Assembly: GCA_017545185.1 (NCBI GenBank)
Contig: JAFWQJ010000073.1
Span: 41,419 to 105,418, forward strand
Origin: Oscillospiraceae bacterium
GTDB taxonomy: Bacteria; Bacillota; Clostridia; Oscillospirales; Ruminococcaceae
Reading direction: 5' to 3'
Length of the DNA: 64,000 nucleotides
Below the pieces are notes generated by a model. The model ran no database searches and was not told the DNA's origin. It worked only from the letters and a program-made list of their open reading frames with translations. The position numbers and the translations under genes were made by a program. Below, piece after piece: positions 49,290 through 59,535 of this stretch. Positions within the stretch are counted from its first letter, which is position 1, and every line of letters begins with the position of its first letter.

Positions 49290-49303
49290 AAGGAGGGACT
49301 GTG

Positions 49304-51880
49304 ATGGCATTTTCATGGGTGAATTTTGGTACATCCTTTCTCAAGGAAATTCTGAAAAAAAACGAATTGAATGCGCAGCAGCGTGAAAACTTGGATTTTG
49401 CGCTGCAAATCAATGAAGTAAACATTCTGAGCAGTATCATGCTAAGTATATGTTCAGAACCGGATATTTCATTCGTAAAGCAATACCGCACGATCATTGA
49501 AAATTCGCTGCTCAAGTCATATAAGGAGGAAGTCCTTCAGATCTGCAAAGCACTTCACATTACCGGCCGAACATTCGACGAAAAGTGGCAGGCATTGATG
49601 AAAAAGCCGACTTCTGCCGGATTGATCGACGCCTATATCAGCGCGCTGCATCACATCAGCGGAATTGAAACGCCGCTCAATGAATACAGTAAATTCAAAA
49701 CAACCATATCGCTTCGTATGTCAGAGACGTATGCAGAGGATGTTCCGCTGTATCCGTTCCAGAAAGAGGCAGTATCCCGGCTGACAGAGCATTTCATTTC
49801 CAATGATCAGAACGCTGGCATTCTGGTAATGCCGACAGGCAGCGGAAAGAGCAGGACAGCATCCTATTTTCTGATCAAGGAAATGATTTCCCGCGGCTAT
49901 CAAATTCTCTGGATTGCACACCGTCATATGCTGATTGATCAGGCAGCGGACTGTTTTTACCAGTTCGCCGGTTTGAGCAAAATCAACAAGCCGGATATCA
50001 AAGACTACAGAATCTGCTGCATTTCCGGCAGGCATATGAGCATCCGGCAGGTTGGCAGGGCGGAAGTGATTGTTGCAAGCATCCAGTCTGTCTGCCGGAG
50101 CAAGGATCACCTTCGCCGGATCCTGAAGCGCGGAAAAGTCATGGTTGTTATTGACGAATGCCATCATACGGCTGCGCCGACTTATCAGAATACGATCAAA
50201 TTCATCAGAAAATGCAGAACAAACGTGAAGCTGCTCGGCCTGACCGCAACGCCGATTCGTTCAAATGAGAATGAAACATCACATCTGTATCAGATATTCG
50301 GAAACAGCATCATCTACGAAATCTCCATGTCGAATCTGATTGCAAAGAAAATCCTTGCAGATCCGCATTTCATCCGCGTTGAAACGCATTCAGATTTTGA
50401 ACGGGAAGTCACTTACGACGAAGCGAAATTCATCAATCGCTTCGGTGAACTGCCTCCGACCCTTGTTCACAAGATTGCAGTTTCAAAGGAACGTAATGCT
50501 GTCATTCTGCAGCAATACCTGTCATACGCAGAAGAATACGGAAAAACGCTTATATTCACCTTGAATGTGGTACATTGCCGTCTGTTGTATGAAGAACTGC
50601 AAAAAAAGCATATTCGCTGCGGACTTGTGTATTCCGGGAAGGAAGACAATGCCAAGGTCATCAGCGATTTCAAGGAGAATAAGCTCGATGTTCTGCTGAA
50701 TGTCAATATTCTGACGGAAGGTTCTGATGTTCCGGACATCCAGACAGTTTTCCTGACCCGTCCGACCTCAAGCGAAGGGCTCCTGATGCAGATGATCGGC
50801 AGAGGAATGCGCGGTCCGCAGGCAAAGGGAACCGAGACCGTGAACATTGTGGATTTCCACGATAACTGGAATGTCTTTCAGAAATGGCTTGATCCGCAGT
50901 GGATCATTGAAGAAGAGCTTGCAGAGGAAACGGAATCCGCCGCTGTTCGGAAAAAGCTGGACCATGAATCGTATGACTGGCGGGCGTGCAGAGCGCTGTA
51001 TCGTGCGATGAAAGCCGATGCCGCTGCGCTGGACTGCACCGTAGCGGTACCGTCAGGGTGGTATACACTGGTGGATGAAGAAGGCGAGCTCGTCAGAATG
51101 CTGGTGTTTGAGGATCAGCTTTCCGGTCTGAAAGCGATGATGTCCGAGAAGAAGCGCTGGAAGAATAATTCTGCGTTCCGTGCACAGGACGCATTGGAAC
51201 GATACTTTTCCGGTTTTGGTTATCCGCCGGATGAGAGAGAGCTTGCACTCCTGATTGATAACATTCGGACGCTGGAAGATCCGCCCCTGCTGCATGTTCT
51301 GAAAAACAGAAAATATGCAGACCCGGACTATGCGATTCAGCTGGCAGAAACCGAGCAGAAAGAGCTGCCCGAGCTTGGCCGTGAATTGTATGAGACGCAT
51401 GAGATCATCCGTGACATGTACGCATCTGTCGAAGAATATCTGGAAGCATTGAGCAGGGTCAAACAATACGGGAAGGAAAATCAGCTCAGAACCAGAATCG
51501 AGGAGCTGCCTTTAGAACAGATCCCATTTGATACCACACCTTATTATGATATCGAAGAGCTCTATGAAGAAGTGAAGCAGGAACGCTGGGGCGGCAAGTT
51601 TGACGGAATCAGCTCCATAAACTGGACAGACAAGCCGTATAAGACATATTTCGGCATCTATTATCCGGACAATTCCAGCATTAAAATCAATATGATTCTG
51701 AACAGCAAGGATGTCCCGCGGGAAGCTGTCAAGTTTGTGATCTATCATGAGATGCTTCACCGTGACAATCGCCGTCACGACGCAGCGTTCAGGGAACAGG
51801 AGCATCGCTACCCGAACTATGAGGAATTGGAGCATTTCCTGTACGGTGAGATGCTGCAGTACGATATCAGCAAAATGTGA
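49304..51880 (+). CDS. SF2 DEAD/DEAH helicase fused to SprT-like zinc protease
   Basis: An 858-aa protein. Residues 1-140 are an unknown helical domain. Residues 145-510 are a superfamily 2 helicase core: Walker A MPTGSGKS (176-183), DEAH-box variant DECHH (284-288), LTATP (313-317) and motif VI QMIGRGMRG (496-504). A linker domain follows, and the last 100 residues form a SprT-like metalloprotease: strand INMILN, then HEMLH (815-819) with a third ligand in HDAAF (His825), as in SprT/Wss1. SprT-type proteases degrade DNA-protein crosslinks, so DNA translocation coupled to proteolysis of DNA-bound proteins is the natural hypothesis. ATG 49304 is 7 nt after AGGAGG. Confidence 0.85.
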   Translation: MAFSWVNFGTSFLKEILKKNELNAQQRENLDFALQINEVNILSSIMLSICSEPDISFVKQYRTIIENSLLKSYKEEVLQICKALHITGRTFDEKWQALMKKPTSAGLIDAYISALHHISGIETPLNEYSKFKTTISLRMSETYAEDVPLYPFQKEAVSRLTEHFISNDQNAGILVMPTGSGKSRTASYFLIKEMISRGYQILWIAHRHMLIDQAADCFYQFAGLSKINKPDIKDYRICCISGRHMSIRQVGRAEVIVASIQSVCRSKDHLRRILKRGKVMVVIDECHHTAAPTYQNTIKFIRKCRTNVKLLGLTATPIRSNENETSHLYQIFGNSIIYEISMSNLIAKKILADPHFIRVETHSDFEREVTYDEAKFINRFGELPPTLVHKIAVSKERNAVILQQYLSYAEEYGKTLIFTLNVVHCRLLYEELQKKHIRCGLVYSGKEDNAKVISDFKENKLDVLLNVNILTEGSDVPDIQTVFLTRPTSSEGLLMQMIGRGMRGPQAKGTETVNIVDFHDNWNVFQKWLDPQWIIEEELAEETESAAVRKKLDHESYDWRACRALYRAMKADAAALDCTVAVPSGWYTLVDEEGELVRMLVFEDQLSGLKAMMSEKKRWKNNSAFRAQDALERYFSGFGYPPDERELALLIDNIRTLEDPPLLHVLKNRKYADPDYAIQLAETEQKELPELGRELYETHEIIRDMYASVEEYLEALSRVKQYGKENQLRTRIEELPLEQIPFDTTPYYDIEELYEEVKQERWGGKFDGISSINWTDKPYKTYFGIYYPDNSSIKINMILNSKDVPREAVKFVIYHEMLHRDNRRHDAAFREQEHRYPNYEELEHFLYGEMLQYDISKM

Positions 51881-53012: not shown

Positions 53013-53041
53013 ATTATAACACAAACCGATGTTTGTGTCAA
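53013..53041 (-). promoter_or_regulatory. Consensus promoter with embedded dyad
   Basis: TTGACA (53036-53041), 17 nt, TATAAT (53013-53018). ACACAAAC (53019-53026) and GTTTGTGT (53031-53038) form a perfect inverted repeat with a 4-nt spacer, filling the space between -35 and -10, so a repressor bound there would block RNA polymerase. Confidence 0.8.
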
Positions 53042-53120: not shown

Positions 53121-53771
53121 TCAATTGACGAAAATATCGTATTCTCCTGTGATATCGGATGCTTTCAGCAGTTCTTCAAGTATGTCCTCTGCATGATTCT
53201 CAGCATTCCGGAAAATCTTCCCGTCAGCCAAGTATTCAGCCTCTTTTTGATTCTGGAAGTCAGCCATGACCTGGATCAATTCCTGATCTTCGGTCGTGAT
53301 CAGCCAGGAATTTTTTACGCTTTTCAGATAGGCGTGATCCATGTCAATCTCATTATACTTGACCTCTGCATCCGGTAAGGTCAGTGTAATGCGTTCACGC
53401 CGGCGGTCGATGTTCACATCGACTTCTTCCAGATCGAACCCGATCCCGATTTCGCAGCTGAACGCGAGAAATGTCTCGTCTGAAGTAAAGGGAACAGCAA
53501 ATCCGAGGAGCTCACGGTGTTTCTCATACGATTCATGCACCATATAAGAGTCTTTCATCGTGATCAGTTCAGCAGCAGGCTGAATGATCTCCATGACATC
53601 CGTCTCGGTGATCTGATAAACCTCGGTTGGCTTGACTTCAATGCCGGCATTGTCTTTCGCGGTCGAGTGCTTTATGATGCTGAATACACCATAGCCCGTA
53701 AGCGAAAGCACTGTGAGGCTGCCGATTACAGTCAGAATCATAATCGCTTTTTGGATCAGATTTCTTTTCAT
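53121..53771 (-). CDS. DUF4230 membrane-anchored protein
   Basis: A 216-aa protein with one N-terminal membrane segment (about 9-31) and an extracellular DUF4230-type domain with the recurring beta-strand pattern ELITMKDSYMVH...SCEIGIGFDLEEVDVNID...ITLTLPDAEV. The family is widespread and uncharacterised. AAGGAGGA precedes the ATG. Its promoter contains the 18-bp box shared with the two other units of the kinase-STAND island. Confidence 0.75.
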   Translation of the reverse strand: MKRNLIQKAIMILTVIGSLTVLSLTGYGVFSIIKHSTAKDNAGIEVKPTEVYQITETDVMEIIQPAAELITMKDSYMVHESYEKHRELLGFAVPFTSDETFLAFSCEIGIGFDLEEVDVNIDRRRERITLTLPDAEVKYNEIDMDHAYLKSVKNSWLITTEDQELIQVMADFQNQKEAEYLADGKIFRNAENHAEDILEELLKASDITGEYDIFVN

Positions 53772-53819: not shown

Positions 53820-53860
53820 ATTATAGCAGATTGCCGAAAAAAGATATAAAAACGGATTCC
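53820..53860 (-). promoter_or_regulatory. Box-type promoter of the DUF4230 gene
   Basis: TATAAT (53820-53825) lies 17 nt from the 18-bp box GGAATCCGTTTTTATATC (53843-53860), which takes the place of a TTGACA -35. A 10-bp inverted repeat (53783-53792 with 53834-53843) also brackets the -10, one arm reaching the ribosome-binding site. Confidence 0.75.
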
Positions 53861-53873
53861 ACAGTCTGGATAC

Positions 53874-53900
53874 AAAAAAGCCGCCGGCGAACCAGCGGCA
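53874..53900 (-). terminator. Terminator of the zinc-ribbon gene
   Basis: GCCGCTGG pairs with CCGGCGGC on the minus strand, followed by TTTTTTG. Confidence 0.8.
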
Positions 53901-53924
53901 GTAAAAATGATAAAAGAATACCGT

Positions 53925-54812
53925 TCACATTGCAGAAAGCAGCTTCTTTTCAACGCGCAGCGTTACCAGCAGATAGTAGGCGTCATCAGCTGGCGAGAGT
54001 GTTTTCTCGTCGATCGCGTCGATCTTTTCTGTCCACTCCTGCAATTCAGTCATCATCGCCATATAGTCGTTGAGCATCGCCATCATATCACCCTCGCCGG
54101 AATTGTATTTCTGCATAAATGCGAGGTAATTGTCGTAGAACGCCTCATAAGAATCCATAAATGCCTTGAATTCCGGCGTAACAAGCGAATAGTCACCGTT
54201 GGCGATCATATCCTGAATATCCTGCGCAGACAATTCCTGTTCGGAGGATTCCTCGGCAGGCGGTTCCGTTTCAGCCGGAGCTTCATCAACCGGCTCAGTT
54301 GTTGTCGGTGCAGTCGTTTTAGCAGCGGGTTTCGTTGTTTTCGCAGAACCAGAATCATCCGGAACGCGCTCCGTCACGACGGGTTTCTGCGGAGTCTCCT
54401 GCGGCTGCTCTGCGCCGCGGTTTCCGCCTGTTCGCGGTATCACCATAATCAGGAGATACACGATCCAGCCGGCCGCAATGATGCCGTATTTTACCTTTTT
54501 ATTCATCGTTTTGTTGCGCAGCATCAGAATCGTCAGCGGAATCGGAAAGCAGAAGATCCAGCCGAGCACCCAGAGCAGCGTGTGCTTTTTCTTCGGCGGT
54601 TCCTGCGGCGGAACGGGCGTTGCAGCGACAAATCCGGCGCGGTCATTGCTGTGATTTGCCTGATAATTCTGCATCGCATTCGCCGTGATAAGCGGCTGCT
54701 GACAGAATTGGCAGGTGCAGCATTCCTGCGACGGATTGACCGGAAATTCGCCGCCGCAATTCGGGCATTTTGCGGGCACAAATGTACCCTGCGGATTGAT
54801 CTGTTCGTTCAT
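53925..54812 (-). CDS. Zinc-ribbon membrane protein with DUF6591-like C-terminus
   Basis: A 295-aa protein: N-terminal zinc finger (CPNCGGEFP...CTCQFCQQP), two membrane segments (about 78-95 and 107-125), a Thr/Pro/Glu-rich linker (about 130-190) and a helical C-terminal domain (about 195-290: FKAFMDSYEAFYDNYLAFM) of the DUF6591 kind. It could pass signals across the membrane or anchor other factors; the function is unknown. AAGGAGG lies in one arm of a perfect 15-bp inverted repeat. The box promoter is upstream. Confidence 0.7.
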   Translation of the reverse strand: MNEQINPQGTFVPAKCPNCGGEFPVNPSQECCTCQFCQQPLITANAMQNYQANHSNDRAGFVAATPVPPQEPPKKKHTLLWVLGWIFCFPIPLTILMLRNKTMNKKVKYGIIAAGWIVYLLIMVIPRTGGNRGAEQPQETPQKPVVTERVPDDSGSAKTTKPAAKTTAPTTTEPVDEAPAETEPPAEESSEQELSAQDIQDMIANGDYSLVTPEFKAFMDSYEAFYDNYLAFMQKYNSGEGDMMAMLNDYMAMMTELQEWTEKIDAIDEKTLSPADDAYYLLVTLRVEKKLLSAM

Positions 54813-54820
54813 AAAATAAC

Positions 54821-54875
54821 CTCCTTGTGTTGTGATCGGGGCTTTGCTGATTTCAGTATATCACAACACAAGGAG
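54821..54875 (-). repeat. Perfect 15-bp inverted repeat covering a ribosome-binding site
   Basis: CTCCTTGTGTTGTGA (54821-54835) and TCACAACACAAGGAG (54861-54875) are exact reverse complements with a 25-nt gap that contains the -10 (54855-54860). The RBS-proximal arm includes AAGGAG of the 54812 gene. Confidence 0.85.
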
Positions 54876-54895
54876 CGGTTATAAAAATGGATTCC
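54855..54895 (-). promoter_or_regulatory. Box-type promoter of the zinc-ribbon gene
   Basis: TATACT (54855-54860) lies 17 nt from the box GGAATCCATTTTTATAAC (54878-54895). No TTGACA-like hexamer is present. Confidence 0.75.
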
Positions 54896-54900
54896 GCGGC

Positions 54901-57612
54901 TTAGATTCCGTTTGCTTTTTCGCGTATTTCGGGTGAAACCTCGCGGAATACGCCCTGTTCGCGGTATGCTTCATTGATGCGGTCGATCTCCGCGATCAGT
55001 TCCCGGCATTTTGCATCGTCCTGCAGCTCAGCGTACACATCGAGCAGACAGTTCAGCAACTCCGCCTGCTTGTCAATATACGGCAGCAGATCGGGATGCT
55101 TTTTGCAGATCGTGACCGCTTCTTCCAGCTTCGCCGCGGCAGCCTGCAAATCGCCGTGATAGAACCAGCAATTCGCAGTCGGAATATGAATGATGTCAAT
55201 GATTTCCAGTTCCGTCGGGAAAACCTGTCTTGCGATACGCTCCGCCTGTTGTGTCAATCGCCGTGTTTCATCAATATCCGGTTCAGCAAGCGAATAGTAA
55301 TCTGCCAATACCATACAGAAATAACAATGATTCTCGCTGTTTTCTTCTATCATTTCTGCTGTCTTGATAAGCAGGGCAGCGGCTTCATCGAAGAAATCAG
55401 TATGGCTGTGTATCAGAACACTTGCTAAGGATATATAATATTTCGTGAGATATCTTTTGCTGCGCAGATCAGAAGACTGCTCCATTTCTGCAATCGCCGT
55501 GTCCATTGCGTCCAACTCTTTCCGCAGTAATTCCGCTTCCTGCTCGTTTCCGGGATAATATGCACCGCCGGTCAGAACATCATAATACCATGCAAGCATA
55601 TCATAATACATTGCAGTGATGATGTGACGGGAATGTTTCTTTCTGAAAATGTCAGCTTCATCTATGATCTCTTTGATCTGCAATTCATTTGCCATGCCGA
55701 CATAGATATCAATCATTTTCTGATGATACTCCATGACGGTCACATCGTCCGCATACCATTCCCAATTACGCACCGTTTCCGCAATGACCGGATGCACGCG
55801 GATCACGCTGTCCGCGTAAAGCCAGCCCTGCGCATTGAGCTGCGGCACACAGCTGAGGTCAAGCCGCACAATGTCACGGATCAGGTCAGCGTTCAGACCG
55901 CGCACATCCAGCAGCGACAAAACCTGCATTGTCAGCCGCTCCTGCGGCGTCATGCCGCCTGCATCAAACAGCGCAGAAATGATTGCGGACAGCGTATCGT
56001 AAACCTCCTCGCCGTCCTTATAATTGCCGATCTTCACATCGGAAAAACGCGAAAAACCGTGCTCCCGAATGAGCGCAAGTGCCGATTCAATCTCCAGTTT
56101 TCCGGCGGCGATCTGCCTTGCGATCAGCTCGATCACAAGCGTATGTCCCTGCACCCGTTCGATGATCTCAGCAAAGGCGGCACGCTCGTCCTTTGTCAGC
56201 GGGCGTTCAAGATTCAGCGCGACAAGACGGAATAATTCCGCTGTATCAGTAATTGCACCGATTTCAATGAATGCAAAGCTGTTCTTCGGCGGCTGATTCC
56301 GTGTGACGATGACCGTATCATAGCCGCAGTCCATGACGCGGCTCAGGTCTTTTGTCACCTTGCCGCTGAAATTATCGAGCACAAACAGCACGCGCTTTTC
56401 CGCGCAGATATTGCGGAAATACGACAGCTTGCGGTCAAAATAATCGTCCGGTGATTCGCTGTTCAGACGGCTGACCGTGCTGATCTGCAGCTGCATATCG
56501 TCGCAGAAAGTGCGTTTGAAATCACCGTCAAATTCCAGATAAACGAGCACATCATATTCAGACTTTGAGCGATGCAAATAATTTCGTATCAACGTGCTTT
56601 TTCCGATACCGCCAATGCCGGTCACATACAGCACGGGATTCCGGTTCAGATGCTCCGCAATCGCTTTTAGTTCCGTCTCTCTGCCGACAAAATGCGGTGA
56701 GACAGAAGGCAGCTTCGGAATCACATAGTCCTTTTTGTTTAATTCATCACAAAGCAAAACAAGCAGCTTTTCCGCATCTGCAATATTCTGAAAGCGATTT
56801 GACGCAGCAGAACGGATCGTACCGCGGAACAGTCTCGTGAACAACGCTTGAATATCCGGTCTGTCGGTATATTTACGGTATTCGCGTCTGCATTCATCAA
56901 ACGAATATTTTGAAAAGCCGCGATGCTCCTGCTCCGTGGAATGCCGCCCGAACAGCAGATAAAAAACGATCTCACCGAGCGTATAGATGTCCGCAGTTAC
57001 ACCGATCTTTCCGGCGGAATAGGGGTTCATCTGCTCCGGTGCTGCCCATTCTCTCGAATATGAAAACGCTGTATTTTCGTCTGTTCCGGCAACGATGCGG
57101 ATGCTGTCAAAGTCGATGAATTCAACAATCTGCGTGATTGTATCATCAGGTGCATTCTGCAAAATAAAGATGTTTTCCGGCTTCAGATCAAGACACAGAT
57201 ACCCTGCCGCATGATAATAACCGACTGTTTTGGCAATCGTCCGGCAGATTTGAAGATACTGCGGCAGCGTGAGGGCATTGAGCCGGTCGAGTGTCGTGCC
57301 GCCAAAGCAGGCAACGTCAAGAAACGCCGTGCCGTTCGCTTCAAAAATATGGCTGACAGGCGGCGTCTGGTTATTCAGCGCGGACTGCTGCCGGATCTGA
57401 TTCTGCATATTTCCGGCGGCGAGAAAACGCGCCTTGCCTCGTTCAAAATCATCCGTGTTCTGCGGCGCATATTCTTTCAGAATGCACTTGGCCGTCAGTC
57501 CGCCGTGCCGACATTCCGCCAGATATGCAGCAGTATTTGCGCCCTGCCCGAGCAGTTCCAGAATCGTATATTTCCTCGCATCTGCTGATATAACAGAGCC
57601 CTTTTCAAGCAT
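54901..57612 (-). CDS. Ser/Thr kinase - STAND NTPase - TPR signalling protein
   Basis: A 903-aa protein in three parts. Residues 1-280: protein kinase fold with P-loop GQGANTAAYLAE, an ILKEYAP lysine strand, catalytic loop CLDLKPENIFI (HRD replaced by CLD), a metal-binding loop FIDFDSI (DFG replaced by DFD) and WAAPEQ. Residues 305-580: NB-ARC/STAND NTPase with VGRETELKAI, Walker A GIGGIGKSTLI, Walker B VLFVLDNF and sensor VIVTRNQ. Residues 640-890: TPR-like helical repeats. STAND proteins act as switches that assemble on ligand binding; a fused kinase would be the output. No membrane segment is seen. The catalytic Asp and Lys are kept, so the kinase may be active. Confidence 0.85.
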   Translation of the reverse strand: MLEKGSVISADARKYTILELLGQGANTAAYLAECRHGGLTAKCILKEYAPQNTDDFERGKARFLAAGNMQNQIRQQSALNNQTPPVSHIFEANGTAFLDVACFGGTTLDRLNALTLPQYLQICRTIAKTVGYYHAAGYLCLDLKPENIFILQNAPDDTITQIVEFIDFDSIRIVAGTDENTAFSYSREWAAPEQMNPYSAGKIGVTADIYTLGEIVFYLLFGRHSTEQEHRGFSKYSFDECRREYRKYTDRPDIQALFTRLFRGTIRSAASNRFQNIADAEKLLVLLCDELNKKDYVIPKLPSVSPHFVGRETELKAIAEHLNRNPVLYVTGIGGIGKSTLIRNYLHRSKSEYDVLVYLEFDGDFKRTFCDDMQLQISTVSRLNSESPDDYFDRKLSYFRNICAEKRVLFVLDNFSGKVTKDLSRVMDCGYDTVIVTRNQPPKNSFAFIEIGAITDTAELFRLVALNLERPLTKDERAAFAEIIERVQGHTLVIELIARQIAAGKLEIESALALIREHGFSRFSDVKIGNYKDGEEVYDTLSAIISALFDAGGMTPQERLTMQVLSLLDVRGLNADLIRDIVRLDLSCVPQLNAQGWLYADSVIRVHPVIAETVRNWEWYADDVTVMEYHQKMIDIYVGMANELQIKEIIDEADIFRKKHSRHIITAMYYDMLAWYYDVLTGGAYYPGNEQEAELLRKELDAMDTAIAEMEQSSDLRSKRYLTKYYISLASVLIHSHTDFFDEAAALLIKTAEMIEENSENHCYFCMVLADYYSLAEPDIDETRRLTQQAERIARQVFPTELEIIDIIHIPTANCWFYHGDLQAAAAKLEEAVTICKKHPDLLPYIDKQAELLNCLLDVYAELQDDAKCRELIAEIDRINEAYREQGVFREVSPEIREKANGI

Positions 57613-57635
57613 AGCATCAGCCTCCTTTCTGTTTT

Positions 57636-57676
57636 ATTATACACGCACAATTCCGGCAGATATAAAAATCAATTCC
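57636..57676 (-). promoter_or_regulatory. Box-type promoter of the kinase-STAND gene
   Basis: TATAAT (57636-57641) lies 17 nt from the box GGAATTGATTTTTATATC (57659-57676), which overlaps the last codons of the upstream regulator gene. The box matches those at 53843 and 54878 at most positions. Confidence 0.75.
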
Positions 57677-58787
57677 GACCGTATTCAATGACCGAATGCA
57701 GCGTCGTGACCGGATCAAATGAATTTGCGCAATAAAGCAGCAGACAGTCGAACGGATGCCGCAAATAGGTCTGTGCAAAGCCGCAGGAATACAGCATTTC
57801 ATCCAGTTCGGCATGAAAGTCCATCAGATTTTCATTCGCAGTCTGATGATCTGTGTTCTCTGTTTCCGAATAGAAATTATAAAACCGCAGCAGCATCATA
57901 GTTTTGCGCAGCAGCTCATAGGATGCTTCCTCGTCATTGATGATTTTTCCGAGTGTGACATCATTGGGCAGCGATTCCGTAAACCGTTTCGGCAGCTTCG
58001 CACCGATCGACTTGTCTCTGCTCTGATAGCGGTAACCGAGCAATTCAAAAATCGTCGCGCTGTTCAGACGGTCAGGTGTGAGCTGGGATTCGGTGTCATA
58101 TTTCGTAATGTGTTCTTTGATTCGTTCAATTTCAAGCTTGATTTTTTGTCTGGCAAGCTGAAATTGCTGTTCGTTTCCGTAGCAATGTGCGGAAAGATAG
58201 CGAGAAAATGCTTCCTCATTTTCCGTTTGCAGGATCACCGACTTGATTTGCGAAGTCGCGGTATGAGCATCCTCCTGATTGACAAAATCGCGGCTTTCTT
58301 CCAGCAGTTTTACCGCTGTTTGATATGGTTTACGATAATACAGGCAGTACAGAAACACCGCATCTACTTTATTCTTGACATAAAACGGCAATGTCAGGTA
58401 ATGCTTCTGAAAGAACAGTCCTGTCTGCTGTTCGTCCATTTCCAGCGCAAAGCAGAGATCGTAATGATTCTGTCGGTTTGTCACGCCGGGAACCGTACCC
58501 CTGATCCAGTTCTGTACAGTCCGCGGGCAGGGCTTTCCGAGCAGATCACGGTATCGTCTTTTTACCTCTGCAAGCATCATTTCAGTATCGTCAGGGCGGC
58601 AAGGAATACCAAGCTGTGTAAGACGCGCTGCCAGCCCCTCAAGAAAAATCGGGCGTTCTTCAAGCGCAAGCGTTCGCTCAATGCCTGCAATGATCTCCTC
58701 TGCATTGTCAGGGCTGACCGGAGCGCCATCATAGAGTTCATCATACATAAATTCCGTATAAGTATCACGGGGCAGTTCGTTTGACAT
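57669..58787 (-). CDS. Possible transcription factor of the kinase-STAND island
   Basis: A 372-aa soluble, mostly helical protein. Residues 60-125 look like a divergent helix-turn-helix of Cro/Xre type (AARLTQLGIPCRPDDTEMML, CPRTVQNWIRG, NHYDLCFALEMDEQQTGLFF); the remaining 250 residues are helical repeats like those of regulators that sense peptides or partner proteins. I do not recognise a named family. ATG 58787 has AGAGGTG upstream; a GTG at 58796 is less likely. It has a consensus promoter of its own, unlike the three downstream units, which fits a role as their activator (inference). Confidence 0.6.
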   Translation of the reverse strand: MSNELPRDTYTEFMYDELYDGAPVSPDNAEEIIAGIERTLALEERPIFLEGLAARLTQLGIPCRPDDTEMMLAEVKRRYRDLLGKPCPRTVQNWIRGTVPGVTNRQNHYDLCFALEMDEQQTGLFFQKHYLTLPFYVKNKVDAVFLYCLYYRKPYQTAVKLLEESRDFVNQEDAHTATSQIKSVILQTENEEAFSRYLSAHCYGNEQQFQLARQKIKLEIERIKEHITKYDTESQLTPDRLNSATIFELLGYRYQSRDKSIGAKLPKRFTESLPNDVTLGKIINDEEASYELLRKTMMLLRFYNFYSETENTDHQTANENLMDFHAELDEMLYSCGFAQTYLRHPFDCLLLYCANSFDPVTTLHSVIEYGRN

Positions 58788-58816: not shown

Positions 58817-58845
58817 ATTATAATTTCTATTTCAGGCTTTGTCAA
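58817..58845 (-). promoter_or_regulatory. Promoter of the 372-aa regulator-like gene
   Basis: TTGACA (58840-58845), 17 nt, TATAAT (58817-58822). It lacks the 18-bp box. Confidence 0.85.
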
Positions 58846-59149: not shown

Positions 59150-59458
59150 TTATCTGTTCATGCGGTTTATGACAGCGAGGAGCAGCTGCAAATCCTCATC
59201 GTTGAAGCTGTGCAGCTTTTCGGTAATCTCGCGGATCAGGATCGGATTTGCGGTTTCTGTAGCGAAAAACTCCTGCGGCGTAACGCCGAGATAGTCACAG
59301 ATCACAAGAAATTCGCTCATGGAAGGCAGTGCTCTGCCGGAAGAAATACTCTAGAATATAGCTCTTGCGGTGTCCGAGATCAAGGCTCATCTGGTACTCG
59401 GATACGCCTTTTTCATCCGAAGCTGTGTGAGCCTGCTGCGAATATCGTCTTCTGTCAT
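59150..59458 (-). pseudogene. Xre-type HTH regulator with two compensating indels
   Basis: The minus strand starts MTEDDIRSRLTQLRMKK and then leaves frame at a five-A run (six A expected); the true frame continues VSEYQMSLDLGHRKSYI. It shifts back where CTAG stands in place of CAG, and continues SISSGRALPSMSEFLVICDY to the natural C-terminus ITEKLHSFNDEDLQLLLAV..RMNR at 59150. Corrected, it would be a 102-aa helix-turn-helix protein typical of Ruminococcaceae. As given, translation stops after about 24 codons. Confidence 0.75.
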
Positions 59459-59535
59459 GATGAATGCACCGCCTTTCCTGCTTATTGTATTATATTTTCT
59501 GCACGAATATTACTGATTATTTCGCAAATTTTCTA

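Follow-up and report, generated by a model that had tools for sequence, protein, structure and literature searches.

At class-II activator-dependent sigma-70/sigma-A promoters, of the PhoB or lambda cI type, the activator site replaces or overlaps the -35 element, its spacing to the -10 is fixed and the -10 is extended; in Gram-positive bacteria, the extended -10 of sigma-A reads TRTGn. To our knowledge, it has rarely been established what bacterial STAND Ser/Thr kinases act on. In a review (PMC4601284), PknK of Mycobacterium tuberculosis is described as a soluble STAND Ser/Thr kinase that controls the activator VirS by phosphorylation, with mymA as the promoter concerned. Here we analyzed a 64,000-nt stretch of an Oscillospiraceae genome (contig JAFWQJ010000073.1, positions 41,419 to 105,418; hereafter the window), in which an 18-bp box stands in place of the -35 element at three promoters. 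These lie beside gene A, for a 372-aa protein, and include the promoter of gene K, for a 903-aa kinase-STAND protein. Like PknK, K joins a Hanks-type kinase to a STAND NTPase, and its gene lies beside a putative regulator gene. The two systems differ in that VirS belongs to the AraC family whereas no AraC match to A was found in Pfam, in that a box stands before the kinase gene itself here, and in that phosphorylation of A is something we infer. The box is very probably a genuine activator-type site; A is probably the class-II activator that binds it, and K would be its controller, by analogy with PknK and VirS.

Architecture of the box promoters

On the minus strand of the window, box 3 (GGAATTGATTTTTATATC, 57659..57676) precedes gene K (54901..57612), box 2 (GGAATCCATTTTTATAAC, 54878..54895) precedes the gene of a 295-aa zinc-ribbon-like membrane protein with a C-terminal DUF6591 (53925..54812; PF20234, E 7.3e-30), and box 1 (GGAATCCGTTTTTATATC, 53843..53860) precedes the gene of a 216-aa DUF4230 protein (53121..53771; PF14014, E 1.3e-16). 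Each box lies exactly 17 nt (N17) from its -10 element, which reads TATAAT (57636..57641), TATACT (54855..54860) and TATAAT (53820..53825), respectively. An earlier reading of these letters without database searches (the sequence-only reading) had placed the boxes, their spacing and the downstream genes in this way, and all of it was borne out; the ribbon (an N-terminal CxxC pattern) and the hydrophobic stretches of the DUF6591 protein were read from the sequence. Its proposal that the box replaces TTGACA also held, as the hexamer found at N17 (TATATC or TATAAC) shares 2 of 6 positions with TTGACA in all three promoters. Gene A (57669..58787, minus strand; ATG at 58787, stop at 57671-57669) has the ordinary consensus promoter that had been noted, TTGACA-N17-TATAAT (58817..58845, minus strand), with 12 of 12 matches. 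Box 3 covers the 3' end of gene A, overlapping its last codons and stop (GG AAT TGA, Asn-stop); box 2 begins 5 nt downstream of the K stop codon.

A pattern scan of the GTDB collection returned 102 stretches, 42 of which were removed by hand as likely chance, and base columns were counted over 64 unique promoters, 54 of them non-redundant. The box consensus was YGGAATCCRTTTTTATAWY (18 bp, about -48 to -30), and the columns inside it that the pattern left free read YGGAATCCR...ATAWY. Upstream of the -10, also in free columns, the 54 promoters carried T(-17) in 83%, R(-16) in 85%, T(-15) in 69% and G(-14) in 63%, and TGn was present in 32 of 54 against a spacer background of 9%; TATAMT was fixed by the search pattern, TRTGn was not. 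The seventh base after the -10 was A in 70%, a bias given little weight because the stretch is A-rich throughout. Flanks and spacers varied among the promoters, while box, TRTG and -10 persisted.

Because these promoters lack a -35 (TATATC/TATAAC), have an extended -10 and carry the site at about -47 to -30, their layout is that of class-II activation. Judged by sequence, they are sigma-A extended -10 promoters (TRTGnTATAMT) in which a probable activator site takes the place of the -35. They resemble promoters of the PhoB/lambda cI type in the site over the -35, the fixed spacing to the -10 and the extended -10; unlike at those promoters, the 18-bp box here is asymmetric, has no clear repeat and, in a mismatch-tolerant scan of six A genomes, numbers 2-4 sites per genome.

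Conservation of the box and its co-occurrence with gene A

A search of the window allowing up to 3 mismatches returned the three sites alone, as the sequence-only reading had held. In the genome scan that it had proposed, the assembly (3.6 Mb, 94 contigs) held three matches to GGAATNNNTTTTTATANC, all at this locus rather than scattered genome-wide, and none to the reversed control; box-N17-TATAMT with up to 2 mismatches recovered the same three sites alone, again with none for the control. At 2 mismatches, the reversed control gave 6 matches across the 14 genomes scanned, none of them in this genome. If three sites were placed uniformly, the probability that all of them lie within 3.8 kb would be ~3e-6. 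In shuffles of the window, the pattern of the earlier reading occurred at a mean of 0.61 sites and 3 of 100 shuffles reached three sites, a comparison that is not a fair test since the pattern was derived from the sites themselves; relatives were therefore used as the main evidence.

Protein A was searched against 61 relatives and then against 396 family genomes, which yielded 20 full-length orthologues (52-100% identity, window copy included). When junctions were scanned for a box with at least 10 of 13 positions and a -10 at a spacing of 15-19, both were found directly 3' of A, between A and K, in all 20 (box 10-13/13, -10 5-6/6), with N17 in 19 and N16 in one (L153). The box meets the end of A in several ways: besides the Asn-stop form of the window, a TGA stop replaces the first bases of the box in a second variant (TGAATCCA), and in a third an extension reads (C/T)GG AAT TCC GAT TTA TAA, its T-run bent to suit the codons. 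Among distant A homologues (<=30% identity), none of the 11 scanned had a sense-orientation box promoter. Boxes also stood 5' of A in 7 of the 20 loci, often with a small open reading frame (ORF) between. A conserved 65-aa ORF lies between box promoter and A at four loci of three genomes (L006, L007, L008, L012; e.g. L039:5795-5989, minus strand), with 83-100% identity to the L006 copy, and is absent from the window.

The exact promoter pattern occurred in 20 of the 396 family genomes and its reversed control in none (0/396). Gene A, counted at 52% identity or more with fragments included, was present in 18: both were found in 16 genomes, A only in 2, the box only in 4 and neither in 374 (Fisher 5.7e-23, a P-value that is too small given the shared ancestry of the genomes). 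The two A-only genomes have N16 (G433) and TATCAT (G124). Among 30 genus genomes, the shorter box GGAATNNNTTTTTATA matched in 11, and all five A genomes have N17 promoters; the six A-less ones comprise G024 with an exact promoter, G008 with TATTAT, and G002, G003, G012 and G028, which have no -10 there. In the GTDB scan, a homologue of A or K (E 1e-4 or better) lay no more than 8 kb away in 34 of the 80 stretches examined, some of them from records with the label Lachnospiraceae or Erysipelotrichaceae; many of the other stretches seem to be chance matches in AT-rich DNA, chiefly a Pelagibacteraceae site that recurs. The 32 loci chosen by hand represent 29 genomes, 19 with an A match, which in one (G448) is a 32% relative. 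Eleven genomes have no close A: A is cut by the contig end in G457, pieces of K are found in G449 and G452, six hold neither A nor K, and G448 and G468 make up the rest. The A relative of G448 lies elsewhere (L196), beside an integrase-like ORF. Boxed K genes without an adjacent A were seen at L072:2508-2571 and at L205, where the box is 5' of K.

The private regulon of a signalling system that the sequence-only reading had suggested is supported by the lack of any further site in its own genome, by the 20 of 20 orthologous junctions and by the co-occurrence with gene A over 396 genomes. These results point to a likely tiny private regulon in Ruminococcus-group gut and rumen bacteria, with a box that different species have kept and that mostly accompanies the A-K unit.

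Protein A, kinase K and competing explanations

Protein A has no Pfam family at E 0.01 and no sequence match to a helix-turn-helix (HTH) or sigma-factor family; the AraC model was not among the families listed for 28 A members at E 1, and no AraC HTH was seen by sequence comparison. In the predicted structure of A, the top two of 24 fold matches were DNA-binding proteins (Rgg2 and Stl) over the same residues, both weak matches, a slight indication that an Rgg/XRE-like DNA-binding domain lies at about residues 46-130; A as a whole is predicted to be all-helical, its C-terminal part included. The match to Rgg2 (PDB 4yv6) is too weak to prove membership of the Rgg-type XRE regulators. Rgg proteins are reported to respond to peptides, and A differs from them in being paired with a kinase and in lacking an HTH-family sequence match. 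In K, we found Pkinase (3e-15), nSTAND6 (1.6e-7; 31.9 bits, cut-off 27.7) and NB-ARC (7.9e-6; 25.7 bits, cut-off 23.5) domains and weak C-terminal repeats (TPR_MalT, E 0.0078, under its cut-off); K46, D142, K144, N147, D167 and the P-loop K338 are identical in 24 of 24 aligned K sequences. The system is a known combination, a STAND kinase with a transcription activator, in which A is a probable regulator named by none of the libraries searched.

In the mechanism that we propose, the box would be the site of a dedicated activator that substitutes for the missing -35 at sigma-A extended -10 promoters, and this activator would most likely be protein A, in which a helical signal domain would follow the predicted Rgg/XRE-like HTH. 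We infer the binding of A to the box, the phosphorylation of A by K and the signal. Bound to the box, A would contact sigma-A region 4, with transcription starting about 7 nt after the -10. Made from its ordinary promoter, A would switch on the K, DUF6591 and DUF4230 genes; once a ligand of the STAND/repeat part had activated K, K would adjust the activity of A by phosphorylating it, and since K is itself a target of A, the two would form a feedback loop.

Several observations weigh against A as the protein that reads the box, beginning with its weak fold match. Four A-less family genomes retain boxes, one of them 99% complete (G361, isolate YE71); in this isolate, where no A was found, the box precedes an orthologue of RUMAL_RS17475 (39.6% over 571 aa), a box gene of Ruminococcus albus 7. 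In G448 (K frame of 908 aa) and G468 (732 aa, cut by the contig end), a boxed K has a different gene at A's place, and its promoter keeps 12 of 13 and 11 of 13 box positions, respectively, despite having no neighbouring A. The K box of G448 reads GGAATTGA, including AAT TGA, as if the end of an A gene now gone had stayed behind. In these lineages, A has either disappeared or been relocated, or else the box is read by a second protein. Boxes in A-less genomes leave room for another binder, with A and K merely co-regulated members of that other regulator's regulon, an explanation we consider unlikely. Against it, 374 of 378 A-less family genomes lack an exact box promoter and 16 of 18 A genomes have one; moreover, the small XRE genes divergent to some boxes (L036, L037, L043, L070, L078, L121) are unlike each other, and at L078 and L121 a separate palindrome, recognized by eye, adjoins the box.

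It is quite improbable that A is instead a repressor whose operator overlaps the -35 and whose induction would be derepression via K. The box does span about -47 to -30, a region where repressors bind too, but window hexamers with 2 of 6 positions of TTGACA would be expected to give little basal activity, and an extended -10 suits an activated promoter. The sequence-only reading had left open whether the 372-aa protein is an activator or an alternative sigma factor is used. The former option is favored because of the TRTGn and TATAMT promoters and the (weak) DNA-binding structure matches of A, and the latter, in which such a factor would read box and -10 as one composite promoter, is highly improbable: it would explain the rigid N17 and the missing -35, but TRTGn and TATAMT are sigma-A features, the first of them in columns that the pattern left free, and A has no sigma-factor family match and has Rgg2 and Stl as its best structure matches. 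A chance origin of the boxes, or their recent copying as repeats, has negligible likelihood, for even though the box is AT-rich, 42 of 102 collection stretches (many of them the one Pelagibacteraceae site) were set aside as likely chance and the reversed control matched at 2 mismatches, this explanation is contradicted by the 20 of 20 junctions, the empty exact control over 396 genomes and the constancy of box, TRTG and -10 amid varying flanks and spacers.

Returning to A as activator and K as its controller, a Ser/Thr kinase was near distant A relatives in 4 of the 17 places looked at, directly 3' of A at L175, L246 and Butyrivibrio pCY186 and 3.8 kb off at L048, where a PP2C gene touches A; at the other 13, none was seen, mostly within just 1.5 kb of flank. 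We tentatively suggest an unnamed activator family whose members may each have their own cytoplasmic Ser/Thr kinase, forming one-kinase/one-activator switches with private asymmetric boxes. Its Ruminococcus version, on chromosomes and plasmids, would control only itself and a few envelope proteins and be gated by a ligand, through phosphorylation of the activator by the STAND kinase. Comparative genomics here names a likely STAND-kinase partner, its DNA site and 2-4 target promoters in R. albus 7, a strain that has been cultured and sequenced, and A with its box could be put to use in gut Firmicutes as an orthogonal activator-promoter pair.

Genes behind the boxes and neighbouring features

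Box promoters precede K, A (at the 7 of 20 loci above) and recurring genes for membrane or secreted proteins, namely DUF6591 and DUF4230 proteins, a 45-48-aa membrane protein, lipoproteins and a ~635-aa surface protein, the locations being judged from the sequences. In G023, a box lies before a DUF6591 gene on another contig. Plasmid pRUMAL01 of R. albus 7 (DSM 20455) carries A (RUMAL_RS17560), K (RUMAL_RS17555) and three exact boxes (minus strand; 184227-184267, 174441-174481 and 166609-166649). The genes that these boxes precede are K, RUMAL_RS21950 (48 aa) and RUMAL_RS17475 (634 aa); two more sites were found in this strain at 3 mismatches, and the control also gave three such sites. The A-K pair of R. 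albus 7 lies near brxL, a ThiF-family adenylyltransferase, a Mov34/MPN/PAD-1 protein and a PIN/antitoxin pair (L256, NC_014824.1 160000-186000), an apparent defence region. At L060, a 36%-identical A, the start of K and a perfect box share a contig with ORFs whose translations read as ParB-like, ParM-like and relaxase-like, and this contig is probably a mobile element. Further box promoters, at L036:8417, L037:7879 and L043:7294, diverge from a small XRE gene and are followed by zinc-ribbon, CxxC or coiled-coil genes; at L036 and L037, ATG GAT TCC within the reversed box could start the XRE frame.

In the window, a terminator-like hairpin (53880..53899, minus strand; 8 pairs, 7 of them G-C, then TTTTTT) lies 3' of the DUF6591 gene, 19 nt before box 1. 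Another TTGACA-N17-TATAAT promoter besides that of gene A, its -10 preceded by TG, is found at 53013-53041 (minus strand), 5' of a 228-aa ORF without a Pfam match. An apparent broken HTH regulator gene was recognized from its letters alone at 59150-59460 (minus strand). On the plus strand, 49301-51880 encodes a helicase of 859 aa that has a ResIII domain and, at its C-terminus, a weak likeness to YgjP/SprT metallopeptidases; PADLOC matches it through the helicase part.

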